This document shows positions 10,603 to 41,458 of a DNA stretch of 64,000 bases, in pieces. This DNA is from Methylomagnum ishizawai (GTDB lineage: Bacteria > Pseudomonadota > Gammaproteobacteria > Methylococcales > Methylococcaceae), in assembly GCF_019670005.1 (NCBI RefSeq), contig NZ_AP019783.1:2692150-2756149 (forward strand), read 5' to 3'. Each line of letters opens with the position of its first letter. The stretch's first letter is position 1. Both the position numbers and the translations under genes were made by a program. The notes below the pieces were generated by a model that was not told the DNA's origin, did no database searches, and worked only from the letters and a program-made list of their open reading frames with translations.

Positions 10603-10983
10603 TCAATTCACGAAAAGGATGCGGAAGGTGGCGTAAATCGCCGCCAGCCCGAGGAAATAAAACACCAGTTTGACAGCGAGCAGGGCGAAGATTTTGACCC
10701 AATCGGTATGGACGTAGTCTTCGATGATGACTTGCAGCCCCAACACGGCATGGTGGGCGGTGGCGATGATGAAGGACAGCAGCAGCAGGCTGTTCCAGGG
10801 GTTTTTAACCCAAGCCAGCACGGCGGCGTGGTCCAGGCCGGGCAGGGCCGCGACCGAGAGCGCGAACCAGAAGGTCAAGGGCACCAGGGCGATGGCGGTG
10901 ACGCGCTGGCGCCACCATTCATGGGAACCCACGCCCGCCGAACCCAGGCCGCGGGCCTTGGCGAGCGGTGTTTGATAATTCAT
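10603..10983 (-). CDS. sdhD: Succinate dehydrogenase membrane anchor subunit
   Basis: 126-residue membrane anchor of complex II. Three hydrophobic segments are visible: about 29-49 ([21 protein letters not shown]), 68-90 with a central histidine in [18 protein letters not shown], and 100-122. The histidine and the following IIEDYVH are the family haem/quinone-site signature. It lies between sdhC and sdhA on the same strand, confirming the role. Confidence 0.92.
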
Positions 10984-11023
10984 AGGCAGCCTCGAAGTTG
11001 CGTATCCAAGCGGGAATCCGGAC

Positions 11024-13556: not shown

Positions 13557-14657
13557 TCAGCCCGCGATGCCGCGTTCCGCCAACAAGCGGCCATACAATT
13601 CCAGATACGCCCCCAGCACCGCCTCGCGGCTGAAGCGCCGCGCCACTACTTCCCTCCCCGCCTCGCCCAATCCTTGCCGGTCCCCGTCCGGGGCCGCCAG
13701 CACGTCCCGGATTTGCCCGGCCAGGGCTTCGGGATCGGCGCAGGGGCAGGACAGCCCGTTCCGGCCCGGTTCGATCAATTCCAAGGCGGCGGGCGTATGG
13801 GTGCTGACCACCGGCAGGCCATGGCTCCAAGCCTCCAGGATGACATTGCCCAAGGCTTCATGCCGCGACGGGCACACGAACACATCGGCCAGCGCATAGA
13901 ACACCGCCACCGGATTGCGCCAACCCAGCCATAGCACCCGCCCCGCCACGCCCAAATCCTCCGCCAGCTGGCGCAAATCCGCGGCCAACGGCCCATCGCC
14001 CACCAGCAGCAAGACCCAGGGCCGCCCCGCGATTTCCCCCGGCAGCCGCGCCACGGCCTTGAGCAAATCGTCGAAGCCCTTGATATCGATGAAGCGCCCC
14101 ACGGCCAACAAGGCCCACGCCCCTTCGGGCACGCCATGGCCGCGCCGCAGCGCCTCCCGCTCGGCGGGGGCCAACACCACCGGTTCGGGCACGAAATTGC
14201 CGATTCGATAGACCCGGTCGGCGGGCATCCCGCCCCGGACCAGATGGTCGCACACACCCTGGGTATTGCCGACCCAGGCATGGGCGTGGTGGTAGTAGCC
14301 ATCGAGCTTGTAATAGCCACCCAAGCGGGCGATATGCACGGCGGGCGCGTGCCTGGGCAACCGGGTCAGGCGCGTGGCCCGGCCCATATAGGTCTGCACC
14401 ACGCAGGGCCGCCGGGCTTCGGCCAAGCACCGGATGCGCCAGACCGACCACACATCCCATTGATTGGCCAGCGGCAGATGGATTTGCTCGACCGGCCCTT
14501 GCGCCAGTTCCAAGGCCACCGGGCTATCGCGGCGGTTGACCGCCACCACCGGCTGTCCGGCCCCGGCCAGGGCGTTCACCAACCGCACATAGAATTGATC
14601 CGCGCCGCCGAATTGGCGGCTCCCCAACACATGCAGGGAACAATATTTTTCAGGCAT
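13557..14657 (-). CDS. Glycosyltransferase, GT4-type
   Basis: 366-residue cytosolic transferase with a two-Rossmann (GT-B) layout. The N-terminal half has LGSRQFGGADQFYVRLVNAL, a typical acceptor-domain opening; the C-terminal half has the donor-site blocks LLAVGRFIDIKGFDDLLKAVA, VLLLVGDGPL, VLWLGWRN and the EX7E-like SRHEALGNVILEAWSHGLPVVS. The start at 14657 gives MPEKYCSLHVLG and overlaps the end of the deacetylase gene by 8 bases, indicating translational coupling. Likely adds a sugar to a cell-surface glycan; donor and acceptor are unknown. Confidence 0.85.
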   Translation of the reverse strand: MPEKYCSLHVLGSRQFGGADQFYVRLVNALAGAGQPVVAVNRRDSPVALELAQGPVEQIHLPLANQWDVWSVWRIRCLAEARRPCVVQTYMGRATRLTRLPRHAPAVHIARLGGYYKLDGYYHHAHAWVGNTQGVCDHLVRGGMPADRVYRIGNFVPEPVVLAPAEREALRRGHGVPEGAWALLAVGRFIDIKGFDDLLKAVARLPGEIAGRPWVLLLVGDGPLAADLRQLAEDLGVAGRVLWLGWRNPVAVFYALADVFVCPSRHEALGNVILEAWSHGLPVVSTHTPAALELIEPGRNGLSCPCADPEALAGQIRDVLAAPDGDRQGLGEAGREVVARRFSREAVLGAYLELYGRLLAERGIAG

Positions 14658-15402
14658 AGCGCTCCTTGCGCCGGTTTTTGAAGCGTAGTTTCCAGAAAAA
14701 GCCCAGCAAATCATCGCCCCAGGCGATGGCTTTACGGGGGATTTCCAAAGGATGGGGAGCGGTCCGGGCCGCGCCCCGGCTGCACGTCACCGCCACCCGG
14801 TAGCCCGCCCCGGCCACGGCATCGCGGACTTCCGGGGTGTAGTCGCCGTAGGGGTAGGCGAAGGACTCGACCGCCGTGCCCAGGAGGTCTTCCAGCGCGG
14901 CCTTGCTATCGGCGATTTCGGCGCGATAGGCGGCGGGGTCGAGCCGGCCCAGGCGCGGATGGCTGACGCTGTGCGAGCCGATCTCGATACCACCGGCCCG
15001 GAGTTCCCGCAGTTCCGCCCCCGACAGCAAAGGCGCGTCCACGCCGCCATTGGCGAGCCAGCGGGCCGGTTGGCCCAATAATCCCGACACCGCGAACAAG
15101 GTGGCGGGATGCCCATATTCCCGCAGGATGGGATAGGCGTATTCGGCGAAATTCCGGTAGCCATCGTCGAAAGTCAGCACCACGGCAGGGCGGGATCGGG
15201 GCTGCTGATCGAACACGGCGGCGCGGGCTTGTTCGAGGCTAATCACCCGGTAGCCCAGCAAACTGAGCAGAGCCATCTGCCGCCGGAAACTATCGACCTC
15301 GCAGTAACAAGAGCGATGTTGCTTGGGATTGGCGAACCGTCCGACCTGATGGTACATCAGCACGGAAATCGGCGCGGAAACCTGGGGTTGCGACGGCGGC
15401 AT
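14650..15402 (-). CDS. Polysaccharide deacetylase (NodB domain)
   Basis: 250-residue carbohydrate esterase family 4 protein. The metal and catalytic motifs are visible: VVLTFDDGYRNF (catalytic Asp and metal Asp), GIEIGSHSVSHPRLG (metal histidines) and ESFAYPYGDYTPEV. The N-terminus ISVLMYHQVG is typical of deacetylases acting on surface polysaccharide or lipid-linked glycan. No clear signal peptide, so it may act on a cytoplasmic intermediate. It sits 4 bases after the methylase gene and overlaps the glycosyltransferase. Confidence 0.87.
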   Translation of the reverse strand: MPPSQPQVSAPISVLMYHQVGRFANPKQHRSCYCEVDSFRRQMALLSLLGYRVISLEQARAAVFDQQPRSRPAVVLTFDDGYRNFAEYAYPILREYGHPATLFAVSGLLGQPARWLANGGVDAPLLSGAELRELRAGGIEIGSHSVSHPRLGRLDPAAYRAEIADSKAALEDLLGTAVESFAYPYGDYTPEVRDAVAGAGYRVAVTCSRGAARTAPHPLEIPRKAIAWGDDLLGFFWKLRFKNRRKERYA

Positions 15403-22346: not shown

Positions 22347-23579
22347 CTAGACCAAGACTTCGAGGGCCGGAGGATGGCCCAGGAACGCCATGGGACTGGA
22401 AGTGAAGCCATAGGCCCCGGATTGGAGGATGACCACCAGGTCGCCGACATTGGCATGGCCCAGCGGCATCCTATCCGCCAACAGGTCCAGCGGGGTGCAA
22501 AGCGGCCCGACCACCGAGGCCGACCCCGCAGCCACGGCGGCGACCCGGTTGCCGACCAGGACCGGATAGTTCTTGCGGATCACCTGGCCGAAATTGCCGG
22601 AGGCCGACAGGTGGTGATGCAAACCGCCATCGACCACCAGGAACACCTGGCCCCGCGATTCCTTGCGGTCCAACACCCGCGCGACATACACCCCGGCCTC
22701 GCCCACCAGATAGCGGCCCAGTTCGATCACGAACTCGGCCTTCGGGAAATCGCGGCGGGCCGCAGGCATCAGGCTGGCCAGATATCCGCCCACCGCCCCC
22801 AAGTCCAGCGGTTTCTCCCCTGGGAAATAGGGAATCCCGAAACCGCCGCCCAGGTTCAACAAGCGGACCGGGCCGGGAGCGCTGGCCGCGAGCCGCCGCG
22901 CCAATTCGAGGGTGTTGCGCTGGGCCTCCATGATCGATTCGGCCTTGAGATTCTGCGAGCCCGAGAAAATATGGAACCCATAGAAATCGACCGGAAGCCC
23001 GGCCATACGGGCCAGCAGTTCCGGCACCCGCTCGGCGTCCACGCCGAATGGTTTGGGACCGCCGCCCATTTTCATGCCGGAGGATTTCAGCTCGAAATCG
23101 GGATTCACCCGCACCGCGACCTTGGGGCGCAGGCCCAACTCCCGCCCCGCATGCGCCAGGATATCCAGTTCGCGCCCGGATTCCAGGTTGATGACGATGC
23201 CGGCGGCGGTGGCCTGCCACAGTTCGCGCTCGGTCTTGCCGGGACCGGCGAAACTGATTTTATCCGGGGCCATCGGCGTATCCAGCGCGGTCTTCATTTC
23301 GCCCGCCGAGGCCACGTCGAAACCGTCGATCAAACCGGCCAGGTGCTGGACCACGGCGGGCATGGGATTGGCCTTGATGGCGTAGTGCAGATGGATATCG
23401 GCGGGCAAGGCGGCCCGTAGCTCGCCCACCCGCTGGGTGATCAACCCCCGGTCGTAGGCGTAGAAGGGCGTATAGCCGACGCGCTCGACCAAGCGGGACA
23501 AGGGGGTTCCGCCGAGGGTCAAGCAATTGTCCCGTACTGGGAACAAAATGGGATGGGTATACCGGATCGCTTCGTTCAT
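22347..23579 (-). CDS. PLP-dependent decarboxylase, exosortase A system-associated
   Basis: 410-residue fold-III PLP decarboxylase related to diaminopimelate/ornithine decarboxylases. The PLP lysine lies in [20 protein letters not shown]; the glycine-rich phosphate site is [29 protein letters not shown] and [15 protein letters not shown] form the second-subunit active site. Genes of exactly this type accompany exosortase A (EpsH) loci and their ligase partner. The true substrate of this family is not established. The ATG at 23579 overlaps the ligase stop (ATGA), so the two are made together. Confidence 0.88.
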
Positions 23580-25162
23580 GGCCCCGCCTCCTCGAACATA
23601 GCGCCCAGTTCGGTGGCGAGGCGCTTGCGGTCGATCTTCCCGTTGGGATTGCGCGGCAAGGGTTCCGTCCTGGCGACGATCCTGGCCGGCACCATGAAGG
23701 CGGGCAGTTGGCGCTTGCACGCCTCCAACACCCTGCCGCTCGCCGCTTCGCCATTATCCACGGCGAAAGTCACCAGCACGACGGCCTGCCCCAGCACGGG
23801 ATGGGCGACACCCACCGCGGCGGTTTCCGTCACCGCCCCGGCGGAATAGGCGACCTCCTCGATCTCGGTCGGGCTGATGCGGTAGCCCGAGGTCTTGATC
23901 ATCTCGTCGCGGCGACCGATGAAATAGAGAAAGCCTTCTTCGTCCTTGCGCACCGTATCGCCGGACCAGACCGCCATTTCCGGCAAGGGGAGGCCCGGCA
24001 GTTGCCCCGGCGCGGGTTTGTAGCGCTCGGCGGTCTTCTCGGGATCGTTCCAATAGCCCAGGGCCACATGGATGCCACGGTGCACCAATTCGCCAGGCTC
24101 GCCGGGCATACAAGGCGTGCCGTCCTCCCGCACCACCATGATTTCGGCGTTGGGAATCGCCTTGCCCATGGAATCGGGACGCCGGTCCACCTCCTCGGGC
24201 GGCAGGTAGGTGGAGCGGAAGGCTTCGGTCAAGCCGTACATCAGATAGGGCTTGGTCTTCGGCAGTTTGCCCCTGAGCGCGTCCAGGGTCGGCTTGGGCA
24301 TATGCCCGCCGGAGTTCGTGATATAGCGCAGGTGTTGGTCGGTGCCTTCCGGCCAATCCAATTGCGCCAATTGCACCCACAGGGGCGGCACCGCCGCCAA
24401 GCCCGTGATGCGCTCGCGGGCAACCATACGTATCACATCGCGCGGCAGCAGGTAGTTCATCAGCACGGCGCAAGCACCGACGCGGAAGGCCGTGGTCAGC
24501 TGCGACAGCCCATAATCGAACGAGAGCGGCAAAACCGCCAAGATGCGGTCCTCCGCCGTATTTCCGAGATACTCGGCGACGCTGTCGGCCCCGGCGACCA
24601 GATTGCGGTGCGACAGCACCACGCCCTTGGGCCTGCCGGTACTGCCCGAGGTGTAGAGGATCGCGGCCATGTCCTGGTCGATCACCCGGTGGGCCGGACG
24701 CGCCACGGCACCCAGCCGCTCGGACCAGCTCGCCATGCGCAGCCCCACGACCTCGGGCAGGGGCCGATCCCCTGTCAGAACGACGGCACGCAAGTCGCGG
24801 CATTTGGATACAGTGTCCGCGATCAAATCCCATCTTTCGGGCGAGGTCACCAGGATCCTGGCGCAGCAATCCGACAGGATATGGCCGACCTGCTCGGGCT
24901 TCAGCAGCGGATTCACCGGGACGAAAACACCGCCCGCCGCCGCCGCGCCGAACATGGCGACCACGGTTTCAAGACGTTTTTCGAGGTAGATCGCCACCCT
25001 ATCGGTACGCTCCAACCCCAATCCAAGCATCAAGTTGGCGGAAACCTCGATTTCTTTACGTAAATCCGCAAAGCTGCACTCTCGTCCGCCATCCCGGAGC
25101 GCCACCGCTCCGGGGTTCGCGAGCGCCGCGGCGCTCGCCAAATCATGGATTAAATTTGTCAT
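23576..25162 (-). CDS. Acyl-CoA ligase (AMP-forming), exosortase A system-associated
   Basis: 528-residue adenylate-forming enzyme that would activate a carboxylic acid through an acyl-AMP. Motifs: AILYTSGSTGRPKGVVLSH (P-loop), YLMYGLTEAFRSTYLPPEE (A5), SGDTVRKDEEGFLYFIGRRDE with MIKTSGYRISPTEIEE (A7-A8), and LPRNPNGKIDRKRL carrying the C-terminal catalytic lysine. The pairing with the fold-III decarboxylase is characteristic of exosortase A accessory loci. The acceptor could be CoA or one of the two acyl carrier proteins encoded divergently; that is inference. The gene starts at 25162 and is transcribed away from the ACP run. Confidence 0.88.
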   Translation of the reverse strand: MTNLIHDLASAAALANPGAVALRDGGRECSFADLRKEIEVSANLMLGLGLERTDRVAIYLEKRLETVVAMFGAAAAGGVFVPVNPLLKPEQVGHILSDCCARILVTSPERWDLIADTVSKCRDLRAVVLTGDRPLPEVVGLRMASWSERLGAVARPAHRVIDQDMAAILYTSGSTGRPKGVVLSHRNLVAGADSVAEYLGNTAEDRILAVLPLSFDYGLSQLTTAFRVGACAVLMNYLLPRDVIRMVARERITGLAAVPPLWVQLAQLDWPEGTDQHLRYITNSGGHMPKPTLDALRGKLPKTKPYLMYGLTEAFRSTYLPPEEVDRRPDSMGKAIPNAEIMVVREDGTPCMPGEPGELVHRGIHVALGYWNDPEKTAERYKPAPGQLPGLPLPEMAVWSGDTVRKDEEGFLYFIGRRDEMIKTSGYRISPTEIEEVAYSAGAVTETAAVGVAHPVLGQAVVLVTFAVDNGEAASGRVLEACKRQLPAFMVPARIVARTEPLPRNPNGKIDRKRLATELGAMFEEAGP

Positions 25163-25505
25163 TGGCTACTCATCACTAATCAACTTGAGTGGACATAACG
25201 AAAGGGCGCTTTTTTAATCGCTAGCGATTCCCCTTGCCCCCCGCGTCACCCTCATCAACAATCAACGCTTGCACGCTTTCTACCGCAACGACCTCCTCCG
25301 CAAAAACGATTGTCCGCAACTAAAGCCACCTTCTCTTTCCAACCTCCCTCGTCTATGCGATTTGTTGTATGCTAGCATATTAGCATAGCGCGCCAGCCAC
25401 GCCATGGCAGTGTCACCGCCCCCTACGCGAGGGTGTTCAATACCCATCACCCTCCTACCCCGTCAACCAACCACAGTTACCCTCCATAATAACGGAATCC
25501 CTCCC
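25163..25505. promoter_or_regulatory. Divergent control region between exosortase-associated units
   Basis: About 340 bases separate the ligase start from the first acyl carrier protein and must hold promoters for both directions. This stretch is AT-richer than its surroundings. A 20-bp dyad at 25368-25387 (TATGCTA-N6-TAGCATA, perfect 7-bp arms) also contains the direct repeat TAGCATAT/TAGCATAG and looks like an operator. No convincing -24/-12 sigma-54 element was found. Confidence 0.4.
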
Positions 25506-25751
25506 GTGCTCGAACAGAAAATCATTAGAATACTTGATCATGTATTGCAGCTTGGTGATCGCGGTATAAATTTCAATAATTCCACATTGTTATTATGTAA
25601 TGTGCCGGAGTTCGATTCGATGGCCGTGGTCTCCGTGCTGACCGCCATCGAAGAAGAATTTGGAATCTCCGTGGACGACGACGAAATCAGCGCCTCGATT
25701 TTCGAAACGGTCGGCTCATTGGTTGCCTTCGTGGAATCAAAACTCACTTGA
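25506..25751 (+). CDS. Acyl carrier protein 1 (exosortase-associated)
   Basis: 81-residue acidic four-helix carrier protein. The 4'-phosphopantetheine serine is Ser38 in EFDSMAVVS, followed by the helix LTAIEEEFGISVDDDEIS typical of ACPs. The start is a GTG at 25506 (LEQKIIRILDHVLQL); the upstream in-frame residues are Pro/Thr-rich and not ACP-like. Codons in the first half are AT-richer than neighbours. Probably carries the acyl group processed by the enzymes that follow. Confidence 0.85.
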   Translation: MLEQKIIRILDHVLQLGDRGINFNNSTLLLCNVPEFDSMAVVSVLTAIEEEFGISVDDDEISASIFETVGSLVAFVESKLT

Positions 25752-25815
25752 ATCCTTAAACCCTACCGCTCGCCCTCCCCGCCCGATTGAGTATTAAAAA
25801 CCTTATTCCCCCATT

Positions 25816-27807
25816 ATGCGGATCAGTATTCCCGGCTTTTCCCTAGACCGCCATGGCAAACCCGTGATCGGCATGGACGACGCCAGCCTGTATGCCTACG
25901 GCGATCTCATCCGCGGCACGGAGCGGCTCATCCTCGACCTGTTCGGACGTGGCCTGCTGTCCGGGACCACGCACACCTGTATCGGCCAAGAACTGTGCCA
26001 GATGTCCGTGGTGCGGGCGCTCAACCACCCCCAAGACGCGGTGCTTTCGAATCACCGCAACCATGGCCATTTCCTCAGCTATTCCGGGGACGCGCTGGGG
26101 CTGATCGCCGAGATCATGGGGCGGCGGGACGGCGTCTGCGGCGGCTATGGCGGCAGCCAACACATCGCCTATCGTCATTTCCATAGCAACGGCGTACAGG
26201 CCGGGATGACGGGCATCGGCACGGGGCTCGCGTTCGCGCGCCAACGGCGGGACAGCCCGGGCCTCGTCGCCATTATGATCGGCGACGGCACCTTGGGCGA
26301 AGGGCTCCTCTACGAAAGCTTCAACCTCGCTTCCATTTGGAAGGCTCCGGCGCTGTTCGTGGTTGAGAACAACCGCATCGCCCAAACCACCCCCACCGCG
26401 CACACGCTCGGCGGCGACATCACAGCACGCGGCGCGGCGTTCGGTTTGAAGACCTACGAACTCGACGATGCCGCGCCCGACTTCATGCGGCAGGCCGACG
26501 CAATCATCGCCGAACTGCGCGGGCTGCGGCATCCGGCCCTGCTCGTCATCGAAACCCGGCGGCTGGGACCGCACAGCAAGGGCGACGACTTGCGCAGCGA
26601 CGCGGAAAAACGCCACATCGCCGAACGTGATCCCTTGCAACATCTGGGCCGCCGGCTGGCCGCGGCGGAACGCGCCGCCATCGAAGCCCGCAATGCGGCG
26701 TTCCTGCGGGAAGTCGAAGCCGCGGCCCTGGACTCTCCCGAAGCCCGCTTCCAACCGGAGTCCAGCCCTGTCTTCCGGCCCATCCCGGCGGTTTCCGCCC
26801 CCGTCCTGCCCGCCACGGCCCCCAATGTGCGCGCCTCGCTCAACCAAGCCTTGCGCCAACTGCTCGCGGCGCACGGAGATATCCTCCTGCTGGGCGAGGA
26901 TTTGCACGATCCCTACGGCGGCGCCTTCAAGGTCACGGCGGGACTCTCCACCGACTTCCCGGACCGGGTGATCTCGACCCCGATCAGCGAGGCCGGCATC
27001 ACCGGCGCGGGCATCGGGTTGGCGCTGGCGGGGCTGAGGCCCATCGTGGAAATCATGTTCGCGGACTTCCTCAGCCTGTGCCTGGATCAAATCTACAACC
27101 ACGCCGTGAAATTCCCCGGCATGTTCCCAAGCGTGGACGTGCCCTTGATACTCCGCACGCCTTGCGGCGGTCGGCGCGGCTACGGTCCCACCCACAGCCA
27201 AAGCCCGGAAAACCTGTTCGTCTCGGTACCCGGCCTGACCGTGGTCTATCCCAGCCACCGGCACAACGCCGGCCAGCTATTGGCGGACGCGGCCACCCGC
27301 TGGCCCAATCCGACCCTGTTCCTCGAACACAAGCTTCTGTATGGGGAAGCCCAAAACCCCCAGGATTACACCGAATTGCCCGCCGACCCGGCCGACCTGG
27401 GGAGCGGCCTGTTCCCCACGCTGCGGCGGGGCGCCGCCGAACCGGATATTAGCTTGATCGCCTTCGGCGGGATGCTGCCCATCGTCGAACACGCCGCCCG
27501 GCGGCTGGCGGAGGAGGAAGAACTCGCGGTGGAAATCATCGCCCCGTCGCTATTGGCCCCCCTGCCCCGCGCCGGCCTGCTGGCGGCCTTGGCGGACCGC
27601 CCCATCGTCGCCGTCATCGAGGAATCGCACCACGAGTTCGGCGTCAGCGCCGAAATCCTCGCGTGCTTGGCGGAATCGGGCCACCAGGGCCGGCTGGCCC
27701 GCATCGGCGCGGCCGCCCGGCCCATCGCCGCCGCCCGCGGCATCGAGCGGGAACTCCTGCCCGACGCGGACACGATCATCGCCGAGATCGTGGAATTATT
27801 TTCATAA
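25816..27807 (+). CDS. 2-oxoacid dehydrogenase E1, fused alpha-beta subunits
   Basis: 663-residue thiamine-diphosphate enzyme that decarboxylates a 2-oxoacid and acylates the lipoyl group of E2. Residues 1-290 are the alpha part: TCIGQELCQMSVVRAL, SNHRNHGHFLSY, GGYGGSQHIA and the ThDP motif IGDGTLGEGLLYESFNLASIWKAPALFVVENN. Residues about 335-663 are the beta part: LLLGEDLHDPYGGAFKVTAGL, STPISEAGITGAGIGLALAGLRPIVEIMFADF and HSQSPENLFVSVPGLTVVYPS. Such fusions occur among acetoin/branched-chain type E1 enzymes. Located between an ACP and the E2 gene (19 bases before it). No E3 gene is nearby, so the housekeeping lipoamide dehydrogenase would be needed. Substrate unknown. Confidence 0.88.
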   Translation: MRISIPGFSLDRHGKPVIGMDDASLYAYGDLIRGTERLILDLFGRGLLSGTTHTCIGQELCQMSVVRALNHPQDAVLSNHRNHGHFLSYSGDALGLIAEIMGRRDGVCGGYGGSQHIAYRHFHSNGVQAGMTGIGTGLAFARQRRDSPGLVAIMIGDGTLGEGLLYESFNLASIWKAPALFVVENNRIAQTTPTAHTLGGDITARGAAFGLKTYELDDAAPDFMRQADAIIAELRGLRHPALLVIETRRLGPHSKGDDLRSDAEKRHIAERDPLQHLGRRLAAAERAAIEARNAAFLREVEAAALDSPEARFQPESSPVFRPIPAVSAPVLPATAPNVRASLNQALRQLLAAHGDILLLGEDLHDPYGGAFKVTAGLSTDFPDRVISTPISEAGITGAGIGLALAGLRPIVEIMFADFLSLCLDQIYNHAVKFPGMFPSVDVPLILRTPCGGRRGYGPTHSQSPENLFVSVPGLTVVYPSHRHNAGQLLADAATRWPNPTLFLEHKLLYGEAQNPQDYTELPADPADLGSGLFPTLRRGAAEPDISLIAFGGMLPIVEHAARRLAEEEELAVEIIAPSLLAPLPRAGLLAALADRPIVAVIEESHHEFGVSAEILACLAESGHQGRLARIGAAARPIAAARGIERELLPDADTIIAEIVELFS

Positions 27808-27826
27808 ACCGATAGAGCAGCACGCC

Positions 27827-28951
27827 ATGGCCATCCCGGTACATACGCCGAGAGTCAATAACAATGACGATGAAGTCCGCCTCGTCGGGCTGGAAGTCGC
27901 GGTCGGCGACCGGGTGTCCCGTGGACAAGCCGTCGCGCAGATCGAGACCGACAAGGCGATCATGGAGATCGAAGCGCCCGCCGAGGGCTACGTACTGGAC
28001 ATCGCCGCCCCCCTCGACAGCCAGATCGCCGTGGGGAGCGTCTTGATCTGGCTGGGCGCCACGCCCGACGAAGCGGTACCCCAGGCGGCGACGGACCTGG
28101 ACACCCCGCCGCCGGAGGGTGCCATCGCCACGCCCACCGCCAAGGCGCGGCAACTGTTACAGCGCTACGGGCTGACCGCCGCCCAGGTTCCCGCCCAAGG
28201 CCCGCGCTTGACCGCCGCGGCGGTGTCGAGCTACGCCGCATCCCAAGGACTCGCCCCGCTGGCCGGTCCGCCACCGCCCCGCTCCACCGCCCGCGCCCCG
28301 GAACCCACGCCCGGCGTTCCGGGCCAATGGCGCGAACTCCAGGGCGACGAGAAAGGCATGCTGGCCACGGTGACTTGGCATCGCGACCACGCCGTGCCCG
28401 GTTATATCGAACTGGAATACGATCCCCGGCCCTGGGCCGAGTATGCCCGGACTTTCGCGGAACGCCACAAGCTGATGCTCAACCCCTTGCTCTCGCTGAT
28501 GGCATGGCGCCTGACCCGGCTGGCCGCCGCCATGCCCAAGCTCAACAGCGCCCTGGTCGGCGAACGCCGCTACGAATACGCCGCCGTGAACCTGGGCTTC
28601 ACCGCGCAGGTGGATGAAACCCTCTACCTGTGCGTGCTGCGGGACGCGGAACAGCGCGATGCGCTGGAATTCGTCAACGCCCTGCTGGATTTGCAGCGGC
28701 GCGCCGCGGTGCATAAACTCGCCGCCGATGAAACCAGGGGCGCGACCCTGGGGTTTTCCAGCATGGAGCGCTGGAAAGTCAGCCAGCATATCCCCGTGCT
28801 GCCCCCGCTCGCGTCCTTGATGGTGGCCCACACCGCCGACGCCCAAGGCCGCGCCGTGCTGGGCGCGACCTACGACCACCGCGTGCTGAACGGTTTCCAA
28901 GTCGTCTCGGCCCTACGCAAGCTGGGCAAACCGCCTTCGGACACCCCCTGA
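27827..28951 (+). CDS. 2-oxoacid dehydrogenase E2-like acyltransferase
   Basis: 374 residues in the standard E2 order. A lipoyl domain (1-78) carries the lipoylation lysine Lys43 in ETDKAIMEIEAP. A peripheral-subunit-binding-like segment spans about 103-145 (ATPTAKARQLLQRYGL...GPRLTAAAVSSY). The catalytic domain spans about 165-374. The active-site motif reads YDHRVLNG at 349-356: the catalytic histidine (351) is kept, but the usual aspartate of DHRVxDG is Asn355. It would pass an acyl group from lipoate to CoA or possibly to one of the adjacent carrier proteins. The next gene, a second ACP, starts 17 bases later. Confidence 0.85.
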   Translation: MAIPVHTPRVNNNDDEVRLVGLEVAVGDRVSRGQAVAQIETDKAIMEIEAPAEGYVLDIAAPLDSQIAVGSVLIWLGATPDEAVPQAATDLDTPPPEGAIATPTAKARQLLQRYGLTAAQVPAQGPRLTAAAVSSYAASQGLAPLAGPPPPRSTARAPEPTPGVPGQWRELQGDEKGMLATVTWHRDHAVPGYIELEYDPRPWAEYARTFAERHKLMLNPLLSLMAWRLTRLAAAMPKLNSALVGERRYEYAAVNLGFTAQVDETLYLCVLRDAEQRDALEFVNALLDLQRRAAVHKLAADETRGATLGFSSMERWKVSQHIPVLPPLASLMVAHTADAQGRAVLGATYDHRVLNGFQVVSALRKLGKPPSDTP

Positions 28952-28968
28952 CCCCCGGAACCCCCATC

Positions 28969-29238
28969 ATGGCCCCCGACCGCAACGCTATTGAACAGGC
29001 CATCAAGGCCAAGATCGTCGAAATCGCCGACCAGTTGGGCGAAGACGCCCGCGCATTGACCCACGACGAGTTGATCCCGGCGACGGGCTTGATCGACTCG
29101 GCGGGACTGCTGCAATTGCTGGCCTGGTACGAGCATCGTTTCCAGATTCCCCTGGCCCAGGACGAAATCACCGTCGATAACCTCGGCACCATCGCGACCA
29201 TGGCCGGGTTCGCGCTCAAGAAAAAGGGCTCGCTGTAG
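28969..29238 (+). CDS. Acyl carrier protein 2
   Basis: 89-residue carrier protein with the phosphopantetheine site Ser44 in GLIDSAGLLQLLAWYEHRFQIPL. The motif D-S-A-G-L and the helix after it are ACP-like, and length and acidity fit. It differs clearly from the first ACP of the cluster, so the two may serve different enzymes. Its stop codon shares a base with the GTG start of the next hydrolase gene. Confidence 0.83.
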   Translation: MAPDRNAIEQAIKAKIVEIADQLGEDARALTHDELIPATGLIDSAGLLQLLAWYEHRFQIPLAQDEITVDNLGTIATMAGFALKKKGSL

Positions 29239-30110
29239 TGGCCGGGACTTTAAAACCCCAGGCTGCGAGCGTGGAAGTCGCTCCCGGCTTCCTCGATAGC
29301 CGCGGGGGACGGTTGTTCGCCGTGCATCACCGCCCAGGGCCGGACGCCCCCTGCCACGGCCACGTCCTGGTCGTCCCGCCCTTCAACGAGGAGATGAACC
29401 GCTGCCGGGCCATACTCACCCTGCAAGCGCGGGCGTTGGCCGCCCATGGCATCGGCACCTTGGTGCTGGATTTGTTCGGCACCGGCGACAGCGAGGGCGG
29501 ATACCGCGACGGGCGCTGGGAAATCTGGCTGGACAATCTTCAAGCCGCGCTGGCCTGGCTGGATGGTCAGCGCGGTGCCCGCCGGGCGCTGCTCGGCGTC
29601 CGCATGGGCGTTTTGCTGGCGGCGGAAAGCCTGCGCCGCCGCAACGATCCCGCCACCGCGCTGCTGGCTTGGCAGCCGGTGATCGATGGCAAGCAACATT
29701 TCACCCAATTCCTGCGCCTGCGCCTGGCCGCGCAACTGGACCGCCCCGATCTGGCCAAGGAAACCACCGGCTTCCTGCGCCAACAGTTCGCCGCGGGCCA
29801 CTGCGTCGAGGTGGCCGGCTATGAAATCCACCCGGAATTGGCCGCGGCCATCGACGCCGCCCATCTGGCCCGGCTCGCGCCGCCCGCGGGCACCCCGGTC
29901 TTCTGGCTGGAACAAGTCCTCGCCGCCGACACTCCCGAACCGACCAGCGCCAGCCTCAAGCTCTTGGAAACCTGGTCCGCCGCCGGCTTGAACCCGGACG
30001 TGGCCGTCTACCAAGACCCGCCGTTCTGGCAGGCCCATGAACGGGCCATCGCGCCCAAGGCACTGGAACTCACCACCGGCTGGCTGCGCGACCAATGGAT
30101 TCCCGCATGA
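29238..30110 (+). CDS. Exosortase A system-associated hydrolase 2
   Basis: 290-residue alpha/beta-hydrolase-fold protein. HVLVVPPFNEEMNRCRAILTLQARALAAHG and VLDLFGTGDSEGGYRDGRWEIW form the core opening strands; the nucleophile-elbow region LLGVRMGVLLAA lacks an obvious catalytic serine (G-V-R-M-G), as noted for this family, so it may not be a hydrolase in practice. The GTG start overlaps the ACP stop by one base. It stands beside hydrolase 1, the arrangement typical of exosortase A loci. Confidence 0.85.
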   Translation: MAGTLKPQAASVEVAPGFLDSRGGRLFAVHHRPGPDAPCHGHVLVVPPFNEEMNRCRAILTLQARALAAHGIGTLVLDLFGTGDSEGGYRDGRWEIWLDNLQAALAWLDGQRGARRALLGVRMGVLLAAESLRRRNDPATALLAWQPVIDGKQHFTQFLRLRLAAQLDRPDLAKETTGFLRQQFAAGHCVEVAGYEIHPELAAAIDAAHLARLAPPAGTPVFWLEQVLAADTPEPTSASLKLLETWSAAGLNPDVAVYQDPPFWQAHERAIAPKALELTTGWLRDQWIPA

Positions 30111-30991
30111 AAGAAACCACCTTCACCTTCGACTGCCAAGGTTCGCCCTTGGTCGGCATCTGCCACCACCCGGACCGGCCCGCCCGCCGTGGCGTGCTGA
30201 TGGTGCTGGCGGGCGGTCCCCAGTACCGCGTCGGCGGCCACCGCCAGCTCACGCTCTGGGCGCGGCGCCTCGCCGCCGAAGGCTATCCCGTGTTCCGCTT
30301 CGATTATCGCGGCACGGGCGACAGCCACGGCGAATTCCGCGGCTACAAATGGATAGACGAAGACATCCGCGCCGCCATCGACCGTTTCTGCGAGGAAACG
30401 CCGGGACTCACCGAAATCGTCCTGTGGGGCGAATGCAACGCGGCGACGGCCATCGTGTTCTACGCCTACCGCGACCCGCGGGTACGCGGGATGGTGCTGC
30501 TCAATCCCTGGACCCGCACCGCCGAGGGCCAAGCCCGGACCCTCATGCGGCACTATTACCTCGACCGCCTCAAGAACCCGGATTTCTGGAAGAAGGTGTT
30601 CTCCTTCCAATTCGACCCGGTCGCTTCGCTACGGTCCTTGGTCCGGCTCGCCCGGCTCGCCCGGCAAGCGGGCCCGGCATCCCCTGGCGCGGCCCAGGCG
30701 GGCACCGGGACCGAAGCCCCGTTGTCCCGCGACCTGCCCCTACCGGAAGCCTTCCTGGCGGGCTTCTCGCGCTTCCAAGGCGGTCCCGTCATGCTAGTGA
30801 TGAGCGGCAGGGACCTCATCGCCCGCGAATTCGACGAAGCCATCCAGGCCGATCCCCAGCGCTGGGAGCCCGAACTCCGCGCCAAACGCTGCTGCCGCCA
30901 CGACACCCTCGATGGCGACCACACCTTCTCCTCCGAAGCCCAGCGCGCCCAAGTGGCCGATTGGGCCATCGCCTGGCTGGCGTCCTGGTGA
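30107..30991 (+). CDS. Exosortase A system-associated hydrolase 1
   Basis: 294-residue alpha/beta hydrolase: GVLMVLAGGPQYRVGGHRQLTLWARRLAAEGYPVFRFDYRGTGDSHGE is the family hallmark, and the elbow LWGECNAATAIVFY replaces the usual serine with Cys in G-E-C-N-A. A C-terminal HDTLDGDHTFSS offers the catalytic histidine. It probably acts on a thioester in the same pathway as the ACPs. The ATG at 30107 overlaps the upstream stop (ATGA); an in-frame ATG at 30095 is possible but leaves a longer overlap. Confidence 0.88.
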   Translation: MKETTFTFDCQGSPLVGICHHPDRPARRGVLMVLAGGPQYRVGGHRQLTLWARRLAAEGYPVFRFDYRGTGDSHGEFRGYKWIDEDIRAAIDRFCEETPGLTEIVLWGECNAATAIVFYAYRDPRVRGMVLLNPWTRTAEGQARTLMRHYYLDRLKNPDFWKKVFSFQFDPVASLRSLVRLARLARQAGPASPGAAQAGTGTEAPLSRDLPLPEAFLAGFSRFQGGPVMLVMSGRDLIAREFDEAIQADPQRWEPELRAKRCCRHDTLDGDHTFSSEAQRAQVADWAIAWLASW

Positions 30992-30996
30992 AGCCC

Positions 30997-31839
30997 ATGC
31001 CCCCCGTCATCGAACCCATCACCACGGACAGCCTGCCGGGATTCTCGGCCTTCCTGCATGAAAACCTGAATCCCGCCTTCCGGGCCGATCAATGGGAAGC
31101 CTTTTTCCGCGGGCAATGGACCCCGGAACCGCCCAATTACGGTTTCCTGCTGCGCGACGGGGACCGGATCGTCGGCGGCATCGGCGCGCTCTACGCCGAC
31201 CGCGTGATCCGGGGCCGGCCCGAACGTTTCTGCAACATCACCAGTTGGTGCGTGCTGGACGCCCACCGCAAGCAGAGCATGAAGCTGGCGATGGCGGTGG
31301 TTGCGCAACCGGGTTTCCATTTCACCGATTTCTCGCCGACCCAGGTGGTCGCCGGGACGCTGCGCTTCCTCAAGTTCAAGCCGCTGGACGACCGGCAGGC
31401 GGTGGTTTTCAATGTACCGGGATTTTGCGGCGGGAAAGTGCTGGACCGGGAGGATGAGCTTAAGGCCAAGCTCGGCCCGGAAGACGGGGCGGCCTACCGC
31501 GACCACGCCGGCTTCCCCTGGCTCAAACATCTCGCGCTTGGGGACGCGGACGCATGGTGCCACGTGGTCTATAAACGGACCCGCTTCAAGGGGCTGCCCG
31601 CCGCCAAGATCATCCACCTCAGCGATCCCGGCGTATTCGAGCGCAACCTGGGTAAGCTCCGGTCCTATTTCCTGCGCCATGGCCTGGCGACGACGCATGT
31701 GGAATGCCGCCATTTGAGCGGTCGGCCCTGGCCGGGCAAATTGCGCTCGGGGTTCATTCCCAAGCTCTACCTCAGCTCGACCCTGGCGGATACCGATATC
31801 GATTATCTATATTCCGAATCCGTGGCGCTGGATTTATAA
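30997..31839 (+). CDS. GNAT-like acyltransferase in exosortase locus
   Basis: 280 residues resembling the acyl-CoA N-acyltransferase fold: FLLRDGDRIVGGIGALYADRVIRGRPERFCNITSWCVLDAHRKQSMKLAMAVVA corresponds to the beta4/alpha3 acyl-CoA site (NITSWCVLDAHRKQS). The remainder is less typical. Acyltransferases of this class accompany PEP-CTERM/exosortase systems, and with two ACPs upstream an ACP-dependent acyl transfer is plausible but unproved. An alternative GTG at 30988 overlaps the hydrolase stop (GTGA) and would add three residues. Confidence 0.6.
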   Translation: MPPVIEPITTDSLPGFSAFLHENLNPAFRADQWEAFFRGQWTPEPPNYGFLLRDGDRIVGGIGALYADRVIRGRPERFCNITSWCVLDAHRKQSMKLAMAVVAQPGFHFTDFSPTQVVAGTLRFLKFKPLDDRQAVVFNVPGFCGGKVLDREDELKAKLGPEDGAAYRDHAGFPWLKHLALGDADAWCHVVYKRTRFKGLPAAKIIHLSDPGVFERNLGKLRSYFLRHGLATTHVECRHLSGRPWPGKLRSGFIPKLYLSSTLADTDIDYLYSESVALDL

Positions 31840-33991: not shown

Positions 33992-34034
33992 CCGCCGTCC
34001 CCGCCCAAGCATCCACCACGACCCCGCATCGCCT

Positions 34035-35243: not shown

Positions 35244-35355
35244 TCCGGAATTTGGATATTGGAAATCCTTGACTTGGCCGGCGGCGACTTCGATTTATCG
35301 CTGCCGCCAACAATAGGTGGGGGACACCGTCCGCCCCCCCATAGGCGACGCCCTT

Positions 35356-37937: not shown

Positions 37938-38588
37938 ATGAACCCGATACCTTGGCGCATCAGGGCCGCGATCTCGCGGCATTTCCCGCTGGTATACCAC
38001 TTGGCCGCGAACCTCTTCGGAAGGCACCAATCACCCGGTTATTGGGACGCCCGCCTCGCGGAAACCTGGCATCTTAGGACCTGGCCGACCAAAAACGCGC
38101 TGATCGCACGGTATACCCCCCTGGATGCGGCCATCCTCGATATCGCCTGCGGCAACGGCAGTATACTCCGCGACCTCAAAGCACGCGGCTATGGCGATCT
38201 CTCAGGCATTGAGATTTCCGAGTACGCCGTCGGTCGTCTACGGGAAGAAGGCTTCACAATGTACCCAGGAAAAGTACCTTATTTGCCGGTGCCCGATGCG
38301 GGCTTCGACGCGATCATCGCTTCCCAGATACTCGAGCATGTTATCCGCCGGGATGTTTTCGCCAACGAAATCAAACGCGCCTTGAAGCCGGGTGGACAAG
38401 CCTTTTTCTTTGTCCCAGACGATTGCCTCGGCCCCATCGACGAGCCGGAACATGTCGTCCAGTTCAACGCCCGCACTTTCGAGGCATTCCTCGTCCGGCA
38501 CTTCGAGGTGATCTCGATAGAACGCATCAAAGACGAGAATTTCAGCATGCCGATATTATTTGGCCGGGTCCGCCCAAGAAACACCTAG
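37938..38588 (+). CDS. Class I SAM-dependent methyltransferase
   Basis: 216-residue methyltransferase. The SAM-binding motif I is AAILDIACGNGSILRDLKARGYGDLSGIEISEYAVG; YLPVPDAGFDAIIASQILEHV is the motif around strand 4, and LKPGGQAFFFVPDDCLG the post-motif. Likely methylates a sugar or lipid-linked glycan given the flippase directly downstream (11 bases). Separated from the rest of the exopolysaccharide run only by the inserted IS element. Confidence 0.85.
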   Translation: MNPIPWRIRAAISRHFPLVYHLAANLFGRHQSPGYWDARLAETWHLRTWPTKNALIARYTPLDAAILDIACGNGSILRDLKARGYGDLSGIEISEYAVGRLREEGFTMYPGKVPYLPVPDAGFDAIIASQILEHVIRRDVFANEIKRALKPGGQAFFFVPDDCLGPIDEPEHVVQFNARTFEAFLVRHFEVISIERIKDENFSMPILFGRVRPRNT

Positions 38589-38599
38589 AAACCCCACCC

Positions 38600-40087
38600 G
38601 TGAACCTCCGCACCCAAGTATTGTCCGCGCTCAAGTGGACTTTAATCGGTAGATTAAGCTCGCAGATCGTGTCTTGGGCCATTACCATCGTCGTGATGCG
38701 CCTACTGGCTCCCAACGATTATGGACTGGTGGCGATGACCACCATATTCAGCGGATTATTCGCCTTCATCGCCGAAATCGGGCTGGGCTATAGCCTCGTG
38801 CAATCGAAAGAGGTTTCAACCCGACAAACCCGGCAGGTTTTCGCCGTCGTATTGACTTCGAATTTTTGCGTGTCCGCGCTCCTGGCCTTCGGGGTCGCGC
38901 CGCTCGCGTCATGGTTTTTCGCGGAGCCACGCATAGAGGCGGTCATGCAAGTCATCAGCTTGCAATTCATCCCCGCCGCGTTCGCGGTCATCCCCAACGC
39001 GACCCTGGACCGTGCGATGCGCTACCGGGAACGGGCGTTCATCGACTTTTCGTCCCATTTCCTCGGCGCTTTGCTCATACTTTTCCTGGCCCGCGAGGGA
39101 TATGGCGCTTTATCCTTGGTTTGGGGCACGGTATTCCAAACCACATTCCGGGCGATAGGGTTAAACTGCATCAGCCCCTATTTCCACCTACCCTTATTCC
39201 GTTTTTCCGGCAGTGGCCAGATCATCCGGTTCGGGCGGGACGTGGCGGCCACCCAGTTCATATTCTATATCTATTCCCAAGCCGATTCGTTCGTGATCGG
39301 AAAACTGCTGGGGGGCCACGACCTCGGACTATATTCCGTCTCGATGAACCTGGCATCGATGCCCGCATCGCGCTTTTCCGCCATCCTCAACCAAGTGGCT
39401 TTTCCCGCCATGTCCAAGGTCAAGCGTGACGGTGGCAATGTCAACCAATACCTATTGAAAAGCCTGCGTGGTATCAGCCTGCTATCCTTCCCCGTCATGT
39501 GGGGCATGTCGTGCGTGTCCCCGGAACTCGTGGCCGGGTTGCTCGGCGGGCAATGGCTGGAAGCGACCGACTCGCTCGCGCTGCTCTGCCTCATCATGCC
39601 ACTGCGGGTGCTGAGCCCGATCATAAACGCCGGGCTGCAATCGGTCGGACGCGCCGATGTGAGCTTCCGCAACACGGTTTCGACCGCCATCGTGATGTGC
39701 GCCGCGTTCGTCGTCGGCTGCCAAGCCGGCCTGCCGGGCATGGCGCTGGCCTGGATATCCGCGTTCCCGCTGGTCTTCCTCGCCAATGTGGCCCTCTCCC
39801 GCCGGCACCTCGACTTGACCCTGTCCGCGGTGATCCTGGCGTTTTTGAAGCCCCTGTTCGCCAGCCTGCTGATGTACGGCGCGGTGTGGGGTATGCGCGA
39901 GGGCCTGGCCTCCTTGGCGGTGCCGCCAGCACTTCACGCCCTAACCCTGCTGCCCCTGCCCCGGCTGGGAATACTGGTATTCACCGGCGCGCTGGCTTAT
40001 CTGCTGGGGAACCTGCTGTTCAACCGTACGGGACTGGCCGAAGTGATGGGCCTGCTGCGGCCCGCCAGGCTCGAAACGTCCTCTTGA
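38600..40087 (+). CDS. Polysaccharide flippase, Wzx/PST type
   Basis: 495-residue membrane protein with about 12-14 transmembrane helices, of the MATE/MOP superfamily branch that moves lipid-linked oligosaccharide across the inner membrane. Typical sequences are SALKWTLIGRLSSQIVSWAITIVVMRLLAPNDYGLVAM at the N-terminus, EIGLGYSLVQ, and IIRFGRDVAATQFIFYIYSQADSFVIGKLLGGHDLGLYSVS mid-protein. The GTG start at 38600 begins NLRTQVLSALKW. Convergent with the O-glycosylation ligase gene. Confidence 0.9.
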   Translation: MNLRTQVLSALKWTLIGRLSSQIVSWAITIVVMRLLAPNDYGLVAMTTIFSGLFAFIAEIGLGYSLVQSKEVSTRQTRQVFAVVLTSNFCVSALLAFGVAPLASWFFAEPRIEAVMQVISLQFIPAAFAVIPNATLDRAMRYRERAFIDFSSHFLGALLILFLAREGYGALSLVWGTVFQTTFRAIGLNCISPYFHLPLFRFSGSGQIIRFGRDVAATQFIFYIYSQADSFVIGKLLGGHDLGLYSVSMNLASMPASRFSAILNQVAFPAMSKVKRDGGNVNQYLLKSLRGISLLSFPVMWGMSCVSPELVAGLLGGQWLEATDSLALLCLIMPLRVLSPIINAGLQSVGRADVSFRNTVSTAIVMCAAFVVGCQAGLPGMALAWISAFPLVFLANVALSRRHLDLTLSAVILAFLKPLFASLLMYGAVWGMREGLASLAVPPALHALTLLPLPRLGILVFTGALAYLLGNLLFNRTGLAEVMGLLRPARLETSS

Positions 40088-40114: not shown

Positions 40115-41458
40115 TCAAGCGCCGCCCTGCCTCGTCCTGACGAAACCCGCCTGCGTGGCGGGGTGGCCGGAGGCCGCGTCCACGCCTACGCCTACGCCAG
40201 CGGCGGAAGCCGCTATTTCCTTGCCGACGGCGGTCTTGACCGCGCCCACGATGAAGAGCAGGCACCAAGGCAAATCGAAATACGCCAACCCCAGGAACGC
40301 GCCGCCGGTCGCATAGGCGATCAGGGAAACCTGTGTCATCCGCGCCAAATCCCCGGCCCATTGCAAGGCCGCGACGCCCTTGGCTTTCGCGGTTATCCAA
40401 CGGGTATCCCTGAACACCAGCCACCATATGGTCAAATAGGCGATCAACCCTGGGAAACCATGCTCGCCGAGTATCTCGAAATAAATACTATGCACGTCGA
40501 ACGCGCCGCCCTGGGAATTCCTGTAGAAACCCTCGGGCGAATATAAGGTATACGCATTGACCGACCACAGTTCGAAGCCCCCCCCGGTCAGCCTGTCCTG
40601 GGCGATCCTTGTCGCCACGGTCCAGGCTTGGAGCCGGCTCATCGCGGACGCATCTTGCTGGTAGGTTTCGATGGTATGCATGCGCTGGTACCATGCGGCC
40701 GGCATCATGGCGAGGATCACCCCGACCAGCAATCCCCCCAGCAACGCGATCCTGAACTTGTTCTTGACCTTGAACCAGAAGTAGAACAGCATCGCGCAGC
40801 CCGCCAAGAGGGCGCCACGCGATTGCGTCCCGGCGGCGGCGACCACGGTCAAACCCATGCCGGCCAGCAGGGCCAACCTCAGAAACCGCTGCCGCACCTG
40901 CGACGACAAATAATAAAAGAAAGGCGCCGTCATCAGCAGGGCGACGGCGACCTCGTTATTCCCTTCCACGAAGGATCCGCTCGGCCCCCAAACCCGCTGT
41001 GTCCCCCCGGTTATTATGGTGAATATCCCCCCTTTCACCCCGTAATATCCGAACGAACCCACGACCACCGCGATCATCTTATTGATCGCGGCCTTATCCA
41101 CCAGCAGCATCCCGGTGACGATGGCCATGAAAAATATCTTCGAAACCTTCTTGTACTGGATCCAGGCCTCGTCCGGGATCATCGCATACGCAGAGGTGAC
41201 CGCCATCCACGCCCACAGCACGCACATCCCAATCGCGGCGGCGGACATCGGATTGATCTTCCGCCTGGCGCCGAAGGCCAAGGGTATCGTCACGACCGCG
41301 GAGATCAGGGCGAACGGGAACGAATAGGCGAACCCGTAGGCCAAGCGATGCGGATTCATGAAGGATACCCAGTTCCACAACAGGACGCCGTAAAGGGGCT
41401 CCTTGAAGACCCTGAGCAGGACCAGGCAAAAAATCACGACCAAAGCGATATCACGCAT
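40115..41458 (-). CDS. O-glycosylation ligase, exosortase A system-associated (Wzy/O-antigen ligase family)
   Basis: 447-residue membrane protein with about 11 hydrophobic segments. EPLYGVLLWNWVSFMNPHRLAYGFAYSFPFA is the hallmark N-terminus of the ligase family that occurs with exosortase A. The large periplasmic loop contains TQSRGALLAG, SRLQAWTVATRIAQDRLTGGGFE and VHSIYFEILGEHGFPGLIAYL, the Wzy_C region with catalytic Arg/His. Expected to attach glycan to PEP-CTERM proteins or a lipid carrier outside the inner membrane. It faces the flippase gene, 27 bases apart. Confidence 0.9.
   Translation of the reverse strand: MRDIALVVIFCLVLLRVFKEPLYGVLLWNWVSFMNPHRLAYGFAYSFPFALISAVVTIPLAFGARRKINPMSAAAIGMCVLWAWMAVTSAYAMIPDEAWIQYKKVSKIFFMAIVTGMLLVDKAAINKMIAVVVGSFGYYGVKGGIFTIITGGTQRVWGPSGSFVEGNNEVAVALLMTAPFFYYLSSQVRQRFLRLALLAGMGLTVVAAAGTQSRGALLAGCAMLFYFWFKVKNKFRIALLGGLLVGVILAMMPAAWYQRMHTIETYQQDASAMSRLQAWTVATRIAQDRLTGGGFELWSVNAYTLYSPEGFYRNSQGGAFDVHSIYFEILGEHGFPGLIAYLTIWWLVFRDTRWITAKAKGVAALQWAGDLARMTQVSLIAYATGGAFLGLAYFDLPWCLLFIVGAVKTAVGKEIAASAAGVGVGVDAASGHPATQAGFVRTRQGGA

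Follow-up and report, generated by a model that had tools for sequence, protein, structure and literature searches.

A lipoyl-dependent E1-E2 module with its own carrier protein in a putative detached exosortase A accessory locus of Methylomagnum ishizawai

Why would a 2-oxoacid dehydrogenase-type E1-E2 pair stand between two acyl carrier proteins (ACPs) in a cluster of exosortase A accessory genes? The question is raised by positions 22,347 to 31,839 of a 64,000-nucleotide stretch of Methylomagnum ishizawai DNA (contig NZ_AP019783.1, positions 2,692,150 to 2,756,149), which is referred to as a whole as the window. Our answer, to which we give a probability of roughly 0.55, is that the locus belongs to an exosortase A glycan system as an accessory part now detached from it, and that a thiamin diphosphate (ThDP)- and lipoyl-dependent module for loading a carrier protein has been added to it ahead of hydrolase 2 and hydrolase 1. 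Gene content, conservation, the predicted GNAT fold, the motif changes and the linkage to exosortase are computed, while we infer all chemical steps of this proposal.

Gene calls and hidden Markov model (HMM) matches recover all nine genes of the initial annotation, and their content, order, divergent layout and tight spacing with overlaps are borne out by the open reading frames (ORFs). Decarboxylase and ligase lie on the minus strand; ACP1, E1, E2, ACP2, hydrolase 2, hydrolase 1 and the GNAT protein are encoded divergently on the plus strand. Gaps of 64, 19 and 17 nucleotides (nt) separate ACP1 from E1, E1 from E2 and E2 from ACP2, and downstream of ACP2 the genes overlap by 1, 4 and 4 nt at the ACP2-hydrolase 2, hydrolase 2-hydrolase 1 and hydrolase 1-GNAT junctions.

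22347..23579, minus strand: pyridoxal phosphate (PLP) decarboxylase, TIGR03099 (599 bits, cut-off 478, NCBIfam)
23576..25162, minus strand: adenosine monophosphate (AMP)-forming acyl/aminoacyl ligase, TIGR03098 (777 bits, cut-off 592, NCBIfam)
25506..25751, plus strand: ACP1, carrier for ligase and decarboxylase (start uncertain)
25816..27807, plus strand: fused E1 alpha-beta, ThDP-dependent (one 663-amino-acid ORF with E1-alpha and transketolase-type E1-beta halves)
27827..28951, plus strand: E2 with a lipoyl domain and an acyltransferase core in which HxxxNG replaces HxxxDG (domain matches, motif)
28969..29238, plus strand: ACP2, dedicated carrier protein of E1-E2 (weak ACP family match; conservation in related loci)
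29238..30110, plus strand: hydrolase 2, TIGR03101, no nucleophile (236 bits, cut-off 203, NCBIfam)
30107..30991, plus strand: hydrolase 1, TIGR03100, nucleophile elbow with Cys, candidate acyltransferase (284 bits, cut-off 168)
30988..31839, plus strand: GNAT-fold acyltransferase (predicted structure model)

The range of the HMM matches makes 23579 a likelier start for the decarboxylase than the first start of its ORF (23720), and 25506 a likelier start for ACP1 than 25404, though 25404 is possible. The assignment of ligase, decarboxylase, hydrolase 1 and hydrolase 2 to exosortase A families is upheld, since all four exceed the curated cut-offs of TIGR03098, TIGR03099, TIGR03100 and TIGR03101.

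The E1-E2-ACP2 unit and its linkage to exosortase

A scan of GTDB genomes with the window E1 gave 152 relatives; the analysis went on with the best 80. The 37 related loci discussed here (L013-L049, 52-69% E1 identity) were selected by E1 likeness and hence are not independent samples; distant relatives (L050-L092) were covered in part. Genes in the related loci were called by a purpose-written script. A class sample comprised 370 genomes of the window's class, host genome included, and the searches for E1 and ligase in it scored the three best candidates per genome.

E2 is present in 36 of the 37 related loci and ACP2 in 34, the remaining three ending at a contig edge directly after E1. Two of the 34 (L025, L047) have ACP2 at a distance of about 10.8 kb, still within the cluster and ahead of hydrolase 2. 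The E1-E2-ACP2 arrangement is non-accidental, as it recurs in all 34 loci that are not cut after E1. A GNAT homologue is found in 27 of the 37. Exosortase was detected in 32 of the 37 related genomes versus 130 of the 370 in the class sample (Fisher test, which ignores kinship and compares several phyla with one class). In 15 of the 37 it lies at most 50 kb from E1 on the same contig, where about 1.2 would be expected by chance (a hand count over contigs of uneven length), and in a Nitrosomonas and a Rhodospirillales metagenome-assembled genome (L017, L044) E1-E2-ACP2-GNAT sits within the exosortase locus. The initial annotation had set a test for accidental linkage beforehand; the linkage survives it, with E1-E2 keeping both its own ACP2 (34/37) and its association with exosortase (32/37).

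A co-occurrence of this run with the exosortase A ligase had also been proposed for checking across genomes, and it was found in part: E1-E2-ACP2 recurs, but only 17 of the 37 related genomes have the ligase, and this E1 is absent from the other 45 ligase genomes of the class sample. Forty-six of the 370 class-sample genomes have a ligase, and 37 of these 46 also have exosortase. E1 matches at E <= 1e-120 came from two of the 370, the host and G347 (40% identity, no ligase), whose E1 falls outside the window's clade in the E1-beta tree; among the 46 ligase genomes only the host has an E1 of this clade. No E1, E2 or ACP2 was found near the 45 E1-less ligases, in surroundings of at most 20 kb. 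Within the window's family this E1 occurs in 2 of 38 genomes, both of the same genus, and the second (L095) retains the whole block.

The two carrier proteins follow different partners. ACP2 goes with E1-E2 and ACP1 with the ligase: ACP1 homologues occur in 15 of the 37 related loci, with a ligase present in all 15 genomes, and in 19 of the 45 ligase loci without E1. Fourteen of these 45 stretches have ACP1 together with both hydrolases. That both ACPs serve E1-E2 was ruled out, because ACP1 tracks the ligase and ACP2 tracks E1-E2.

Both hydrolases are found in 16 of the 37 related loci, all 16 in genomes with the ligase. Where E1 loci have hydrolases, E1-E2-ACP2 usually precedes hydrolase 2 and the GNAT gene comes after hydrolase 1 (exceptions L014, L025 and L047). 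Eight of nine hand-picked E1-less ligase loci show the order ACP1-hydrolase 2-hydrolase 1 with decarboxylase and ligase beyond; the ninth, L140, has no hydrolases. Each of the two hydrolase trees gathers the 17 E1-bearing rows, among them the window, into a single clade (100/100, 100/99) that stands apart from the E1-less rows (15 and 18), which fits a block evolving and moving together. The window ligase groups with three E1-less rows (91 by approximate likelihood ratio test, aLRT), so that block and ligase seem to differ in history; we lean little on this result, because it comes from a quick tree in which the L042 row is only a 28% match. In L088 (160-5220), one of the distant relatives, an E1-beta from a different lineage precedes genes for a glycosyltransferase, an ACP, a hydrolase 2-like and a hydrolase 1-like protein and a further glycosyltransferase.

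The window exceeds the cut-offs of all five exosortase A accessory families, TIGR03097-TIGR03101, and E1-E2-ACP2 and the GNAT gene are additions to this set. No exosortase was found in the 64-kb window. Exosortase A of the host genome (TIGR03109, 355 bits) is encoded at G000:C1:1527031, about 1.17 Mb from the cassette, in a locus that spans G000:C1:1515000-1534900; 16 PEP-CTERM matches exceed the cut-off, and the window ligase is the only match in the genome over the TIGR03098 cut-off. The initial description as an exosortase locus therefore stands for the linkage across related genomes, but not for the window itself. Because the accessory families lie in the window, the exosortase A locus about 1.17 Mb off and the sole ligase in the window, we read the locus as a probable detached part of the exosortase system. 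Transposases of the IS4 and IS701 families downstream of the locus (36466-37803, 55663-57015, 57155-58315) are possibly linked to this detachment. Outside the window, the host genome also has a second, weak exosortase-like gene (G000:C1:3313698-3314339, 35 bits, in a 598-amino-acid frame) and a large cluster resembling non-ribosomal peptide synthetases (NRPS), with three frames of about 3300-4450 amino acids and repeated adenylation-domain matches (G000:C2:230834-264087).

E1, E2 and the acyl donor

The ThDP motif of E1 and the lipoyl lysine of E2 are present, and E1 active-site motifs are conserved in the aligned rows shown. No E3 was found in the cassette and one lipoamide dehydrogenase was found elsewhere in the genome (C1:1984124), in agreement with the initial view of a module without its own E3. 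E1 and E2 match models of the pyruvate dehydrogenase (PDH) family at domain level, which is what favours an ordinary catabolic 2-oxoacid dehydrogenase of the acetoin, branched-chain or pyruvate type that is here by chance. We regard this as very improbable and largely refuted, as the match extends to domain level only: the best scores are 174 bits against a cut-off of 394 for E1 and 83 against 552 for E2, far under every curated equivalog cut-off shown, those of the PDH, SucB and acetoin models included. Moreover, the cassette has no catabolic genes, and the dedicated ACP is conserved, the E2 motif altered and the linkage to exosortase present. An accidental position of such an enzyme was ruled out by locus conservation, E2 motif, E1 tree and exosortase linkage taken together.

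The His of the E2 motif HxxxDG is kept in 33 of 33 rows and the Asp is lost in 30 of them, the window having HxxxNG (the E2 set lacks L016, L028, L042 and L048, and the L036 locus is truncated). Asp is retained by three E2s of the clade (L035, L037, L043), all from genomes without detected exosortase and from loci without the GNAT gene. PDH-like E2s have HxxxDG in the four with a match. From these sequences we infer that loss of the Asp may mark E2s whose acceptor is a carrier protein rather than coenzyme A (CoA). ACP2 has a DS motif in 29 of 29 aligned rows.

In a quick E1-beta tree, drawn with midpoint rooting, the window and 17 of the 37 loci form one clade (99 aLRT), to which 22 actinobacterial rows are joined as a group (100), along with the single rows L063 and L142; 17 PDH-like rows lie apart. 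The motifs GGSQH and PHSKGDD are common to the window clade and the actinobacterial group and were not seen in the PDH-like rows shown. HxxxNG is present in all 19 actinobacterial E2s examined (19 of 23 loci). One member, from Streptomyces noursei (L087), has the order beta-ketoacyl-ACP synthase III (KAS III)-ACP-E1a (310 amino acids)-E1b (332)-E2 (370), with a polyketide synthase (PKS) gene further on.

Modules in which E1-E2 primes a carrier protein have been reported or proposed for naphthyridinomycin, quinocarcin, scleric acid and pepteridine (excerpts of PMC5384830, PMC6335953 and PMC7570522). Quinocarcin QncN/L/M is stated to have been shown to make a carrier-bound glycolyl unit, and SclQ1-4, consisting of an ACP (76 amino acids), a ThDP protein (305), a transketolase (338) and a lipoyl-acyltransferase (386), is proposed to make a glycolyl unit from a ketose phosphate (excerpts of PMC6335953). 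The dnacin and naphthyridinomycin parts are KAS III, a 76-amino-acid ACP and a two-part transketolase (excerpt of PMC7570522). The Streptomyces noursei parts equal the din/nap set, and the scl set but for KAS III. Like the locus studied here, these modules (NapB/C/D, QncN/L/M, DinS/T/U, SclQ1-4) have a ThDP E1, a lipoyl E2 and a dedicated ACP, whereas the fusion of E1 alpha and beta and the glycan and exosortase partners, in place of NRPS/PKS genes, set the present locus apart. In Photorhabdus pepteridine biosynthesis E1-E2 is proposed to prime a carrier instead of CoA and has no E3 of its own, as here; unlike here, carrier and condensation domain are fused to E2 and the acceptor is a pterin (excerpt of PMC5384830).

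That no pathway of this composition has been described, as first stated, accordingly needs qualification: carrier-priming E1-E2 modules are described or proposed, but among the matches listed in the open-licence PubMed Central (PMC) literature searched, none concerned the E1-E2-ACP2-GNAT set or its combination with exosortase and deacetylase. The same search, among the matches listed, gave none that dealt with what the exosortase A ligase, decarboxylase or hydrolases do, and a term search of the main text of the 2006 PEP-CTERM/EpsH paper gave no mention of ligase, hydrolase, decarboxylase or acyl carrier. Carrier priming by E1-E2 is known or proposed; the glycan and exosortase setting of such a module appears to be new. 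Because the nearest E1 group resembles the glycolyl-ACP modules, the donor may be a ketose phosphate instead of the 2-oxoacid that the initial annotation assumed. By this analogy we give a ketose phosphate donor with a glycolyl product slightly less than an even chance; a 2-oxoacid remains the alternative.

The second carrier, the hydrolases and the acyltransferase

The decarboxylase has its best solved relatives in the BtrK structures 7ru7 (4.5e-76) and 2j66 (9.7e-76), followed by diaminopimelate decarboxylase (4.3e-47). BtrK is by its structure name an L-glutamyl-[BtrI ACP] decarboxylase, acting on carrier-bound glutamate. An ACP adjoins the decarboxylase here, recalling BtrK and BtrI of butirosin; the loader differs, being an AMP-forming ligase here and the ATP-grasp enzyme BtrJ in butirosin. 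The best solved relatives of the ligase are adenylation domains, beta-aminoacyl-ACP synthetases among them, and ACP1 has a DSM motif in 19 of 19 aligned rows. Because of these relationships of decarboxylase and ligase, the two enzymes and ACP1 most likely form a separate aminoacyl-carrier module that makes an amine-bearing thioester on ACP1.

In hydrolase 1 the nucleophile elbow bears Cys in 35 of 35 rows, and the Asp and His positions are mostly conserved; hydrolase 2 has no nucleophile, its elbow residue being Arg in 33 of 33 rows. Both patterns hold for E1-bearing and E1-less loci alike. Some Cys-type alpha/beta-hydrolases, polyhydroxyalkanoate synthase for one, are known to work as acyltransferases. 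Hydrolase 1 is therefore a candidate transferase and hydrolase 2 its putative inactive partner, and the exosortase A "hydrolases" look misnamed.

The last gene of the cassette gave no Pfam match at E <= 0.001 and no NCBIfam match within the longer frame scanned, and its profile retrieved nothing useful from the sequences of the PDB. Its AlphaFold model (predicted local distance difference test, pLDDT, 93) has the GNAT fold, in support of the "GNAT-like" transferase of the initial annotation. The model matches AAC(2')-Ia, glucosamine N-acetyltransferases, Eis and N-myristoyltransferase (NMT) in a tie at Z of about 13-14 (5us1: Z 14.1, root-mean-square deviation, rmsd, 3.5, 159 aligned; 5kga: Z 13.3, rmsd 5.1, 253 aligned). 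In ten loci the GNAT gene has a CE4-like partner, which it adjoins in six Methylomonas loci and L028 and to which kind of domain it is fused in L040, L041 and L044. One of these Methylomonas loci, L030 of Methylomonas sp. LW13, carries E1-E2-ACP2-GNAT-CE4. A model of the L030 partner protein (pLDDT 83) has the fold of CE4 polysaccharide deacetylases (3rxz: Z 23.0, rmsd 2.7, 241 aligned), although the family has no Pfam match and its profile gave only chance-level matches among PDB sequences. In the Acidobacteria L033, L034 and L038 two conserved proteins of about 310 and 370 amino acids are encoded downstream of E1-E2, at the GNAT/deacetylase position; the L034 copies and the profiles of these families gave no NCBIfam, Pfam or PDB match.

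A deacetylase, an amine acyltransferase and an acyl-ACP found together suggest a swap in which the acetyl group of an amino sugar is exchanged for the E1-E2-derived acyl group; going by the modelled folds, deacetylated amino sugars may be re-acylated by the GNAT protein. Nod factor synthesis follows such a logic, with NodB as deacetylase, NodA as amine acyltransferase and NodF as ACP. The likeness is one of logic, and the acyl source here would be E1-E2 rather than fatty acid synthesis. A more specific form of this idea, which we hold only tentatively, is a de novo N-glycolylation or short N-acylation of exopolysaccharide amino sugars, in which a transketolase/PDH hybrid module supplies glycolyl-ACP and an exosortase-tied deacetylase-GNAT couple exchanges the acetyl group. 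The known N-glycolyl sugars arise by hydroxylation of N-acetyl groups; if the idea is true, glycolyl-ACP with deacetylase-GNAT exchange would be a route of a different kind.

Alternatively, the GNAT protein might join the acyl group of ACP2 to the amine of a decarboxylated aminoacyl group on ACP1, and the two hydrolases might move the product to the glycan. The presence of both carriers and the GNAT gene in one cluster here, the resemblance of the decarboxylase to BtrK, named for ACP-bound glutamate, and the ligase in all 16 genomes whose related loci have both hydrolases speak for such a hybrid of two carriers. We nevertheless consider it unlikely, as E1-E2 and the GNAT gene also occur in genomes without a ligase over the search threshold (six Methylomonas, L028, L040, L041 and L044), where the GNAT gene adjoins, or is fused to, the CE4-like family.

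Further genes of the window match glycan-related families.

14650..15402, minus strand: polysaccharide deacetylase, PF01522, PgaB/HfsH-like but under those curated cut-offs (possible partner, not adjacent)
38423..40087, plus strand: MOP/Wzx-like flippase, under curated cut-offs (family matches)
40115..41458, minus strand: putative O-glycosylation ligase, exosortase A system-associated, TIGR03097 (442 bits, cut-off 188)

The flippase cluster is found again in 5 of the 37 related loci, and the window also has one clear and one weak glycosyltransferase match. These data can be set against a product that is a small diffusible or membrane N-acyl compound and not a polysaccharide decoration. N-acyl amino acid synthases have been described beside PEP-CTERM/exosortase genes (excerpt of PMC7293339, citing Craig et al. 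2011), and ACP2 weakly matches the ornithine-lipid ACP model. The recurring partners, however, are glycan-related (the CE4-like protein, glycosyltransferases and flippase, and TIGR03097 here), and we judge a small product to be improbable. Between the cassette and the flippase, the frame at 33969-35243 gave weak matches to prenyltransferase/squalene-cyclase toroid models and has relatives near E1 at 59% (L026) and 76% (L045), and 35317-36309 encodes an AAC(3)-family N-acetyltransferase (117 bits against a curated resistance cut-off of 270) that, by its location, is more likely a glycan or amine acetyltransferase.

A proposed pathway and its meaning for exosortase A systems

On the reading of the locus that we favour, the following steps are proposed. 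E1 would make an activated short acyl group, most likely glycolyl from a ketose phosphate, or else an acyl group from a 2-oxoacid. The lipoyl arm of E2 would take up this group, the modified E2 core would hand it to ACP2 instead of CoA, and a housekeeping E3 would reoxidise the lipoyl group. The GNAT protein would then transfer the acyl group from ACP2 to an amine, most likely that of a deacetylated amino sugar in the exosortase-linked polysaccharide. Ligase, BtrK-like decarboxylase and ACP1 would make a second, amine-bearing substituent on their own carrier, and hydrolase 1, with its Cys elbow and with hydrolase 2 as inactive partner, might pass a carrier-bound group to the glycan or to a precursor of it.

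Several observations weigh against this proposal. Besides the distance of about 1.17 Mb to the exosortase in the host, exosortase was undetected in 5 of the 37 related genomes, and the GNAT homologue is absent from 10 of the 37 related loci, two of which (L036, L048) are cut right after E1. The GNAT-paired CE4 family was not found in the host genome by a search that had no positive control, so that deacetylation in the host would need another enzyme, either that at 14650-15402 or a deacetylase of the exosortase locus. L140 (G383, ~4600-11600) has ligase, decarboxylase, ACP1, the CE4 family and a remote GNAT-like gene (21%) and no E1-E2; the GNAT protein therefore need not depend on E1-E2, and L140 is perhaps an intermediate form of the cassette. 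A second ACP1-like gene is present in five E1 loci (L015, L020, L021, L026, L049), so that some loci depart from a scheme of two carriers. Close to the active site of E1, the window clade has FHSNGVQ where the actinobacterial group has YLSTGVQ, so that the acyl donor may differ between them. The likeness to the Nap, Qnc and Scl modules is indirect, running through the actinobacterial tree group, with the same parts in L087 and with HxxxNG, and deletion of sclQ1-4 left residual scleric-acid product (excerpt of PMC6335953).

The exosortase A accessory genes carry provisional NCBIfam names, and the roles proposed here are a BtrK-like decarboxylation on a carrier, acyl transfer by a Cys-type enzyme that has an inactive partner, and, in the present variant, the work of a dedicated acyl-ACP synthase. 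If the proposal is true, loss of the E2 Asp would be a sequence mark for E2s that load carrier proteins rather than CoA, and an unusual acyl group would be expected on the exosortase-linked polysaccharide, e.g. in Methylomonas and Zoogloea relatives.

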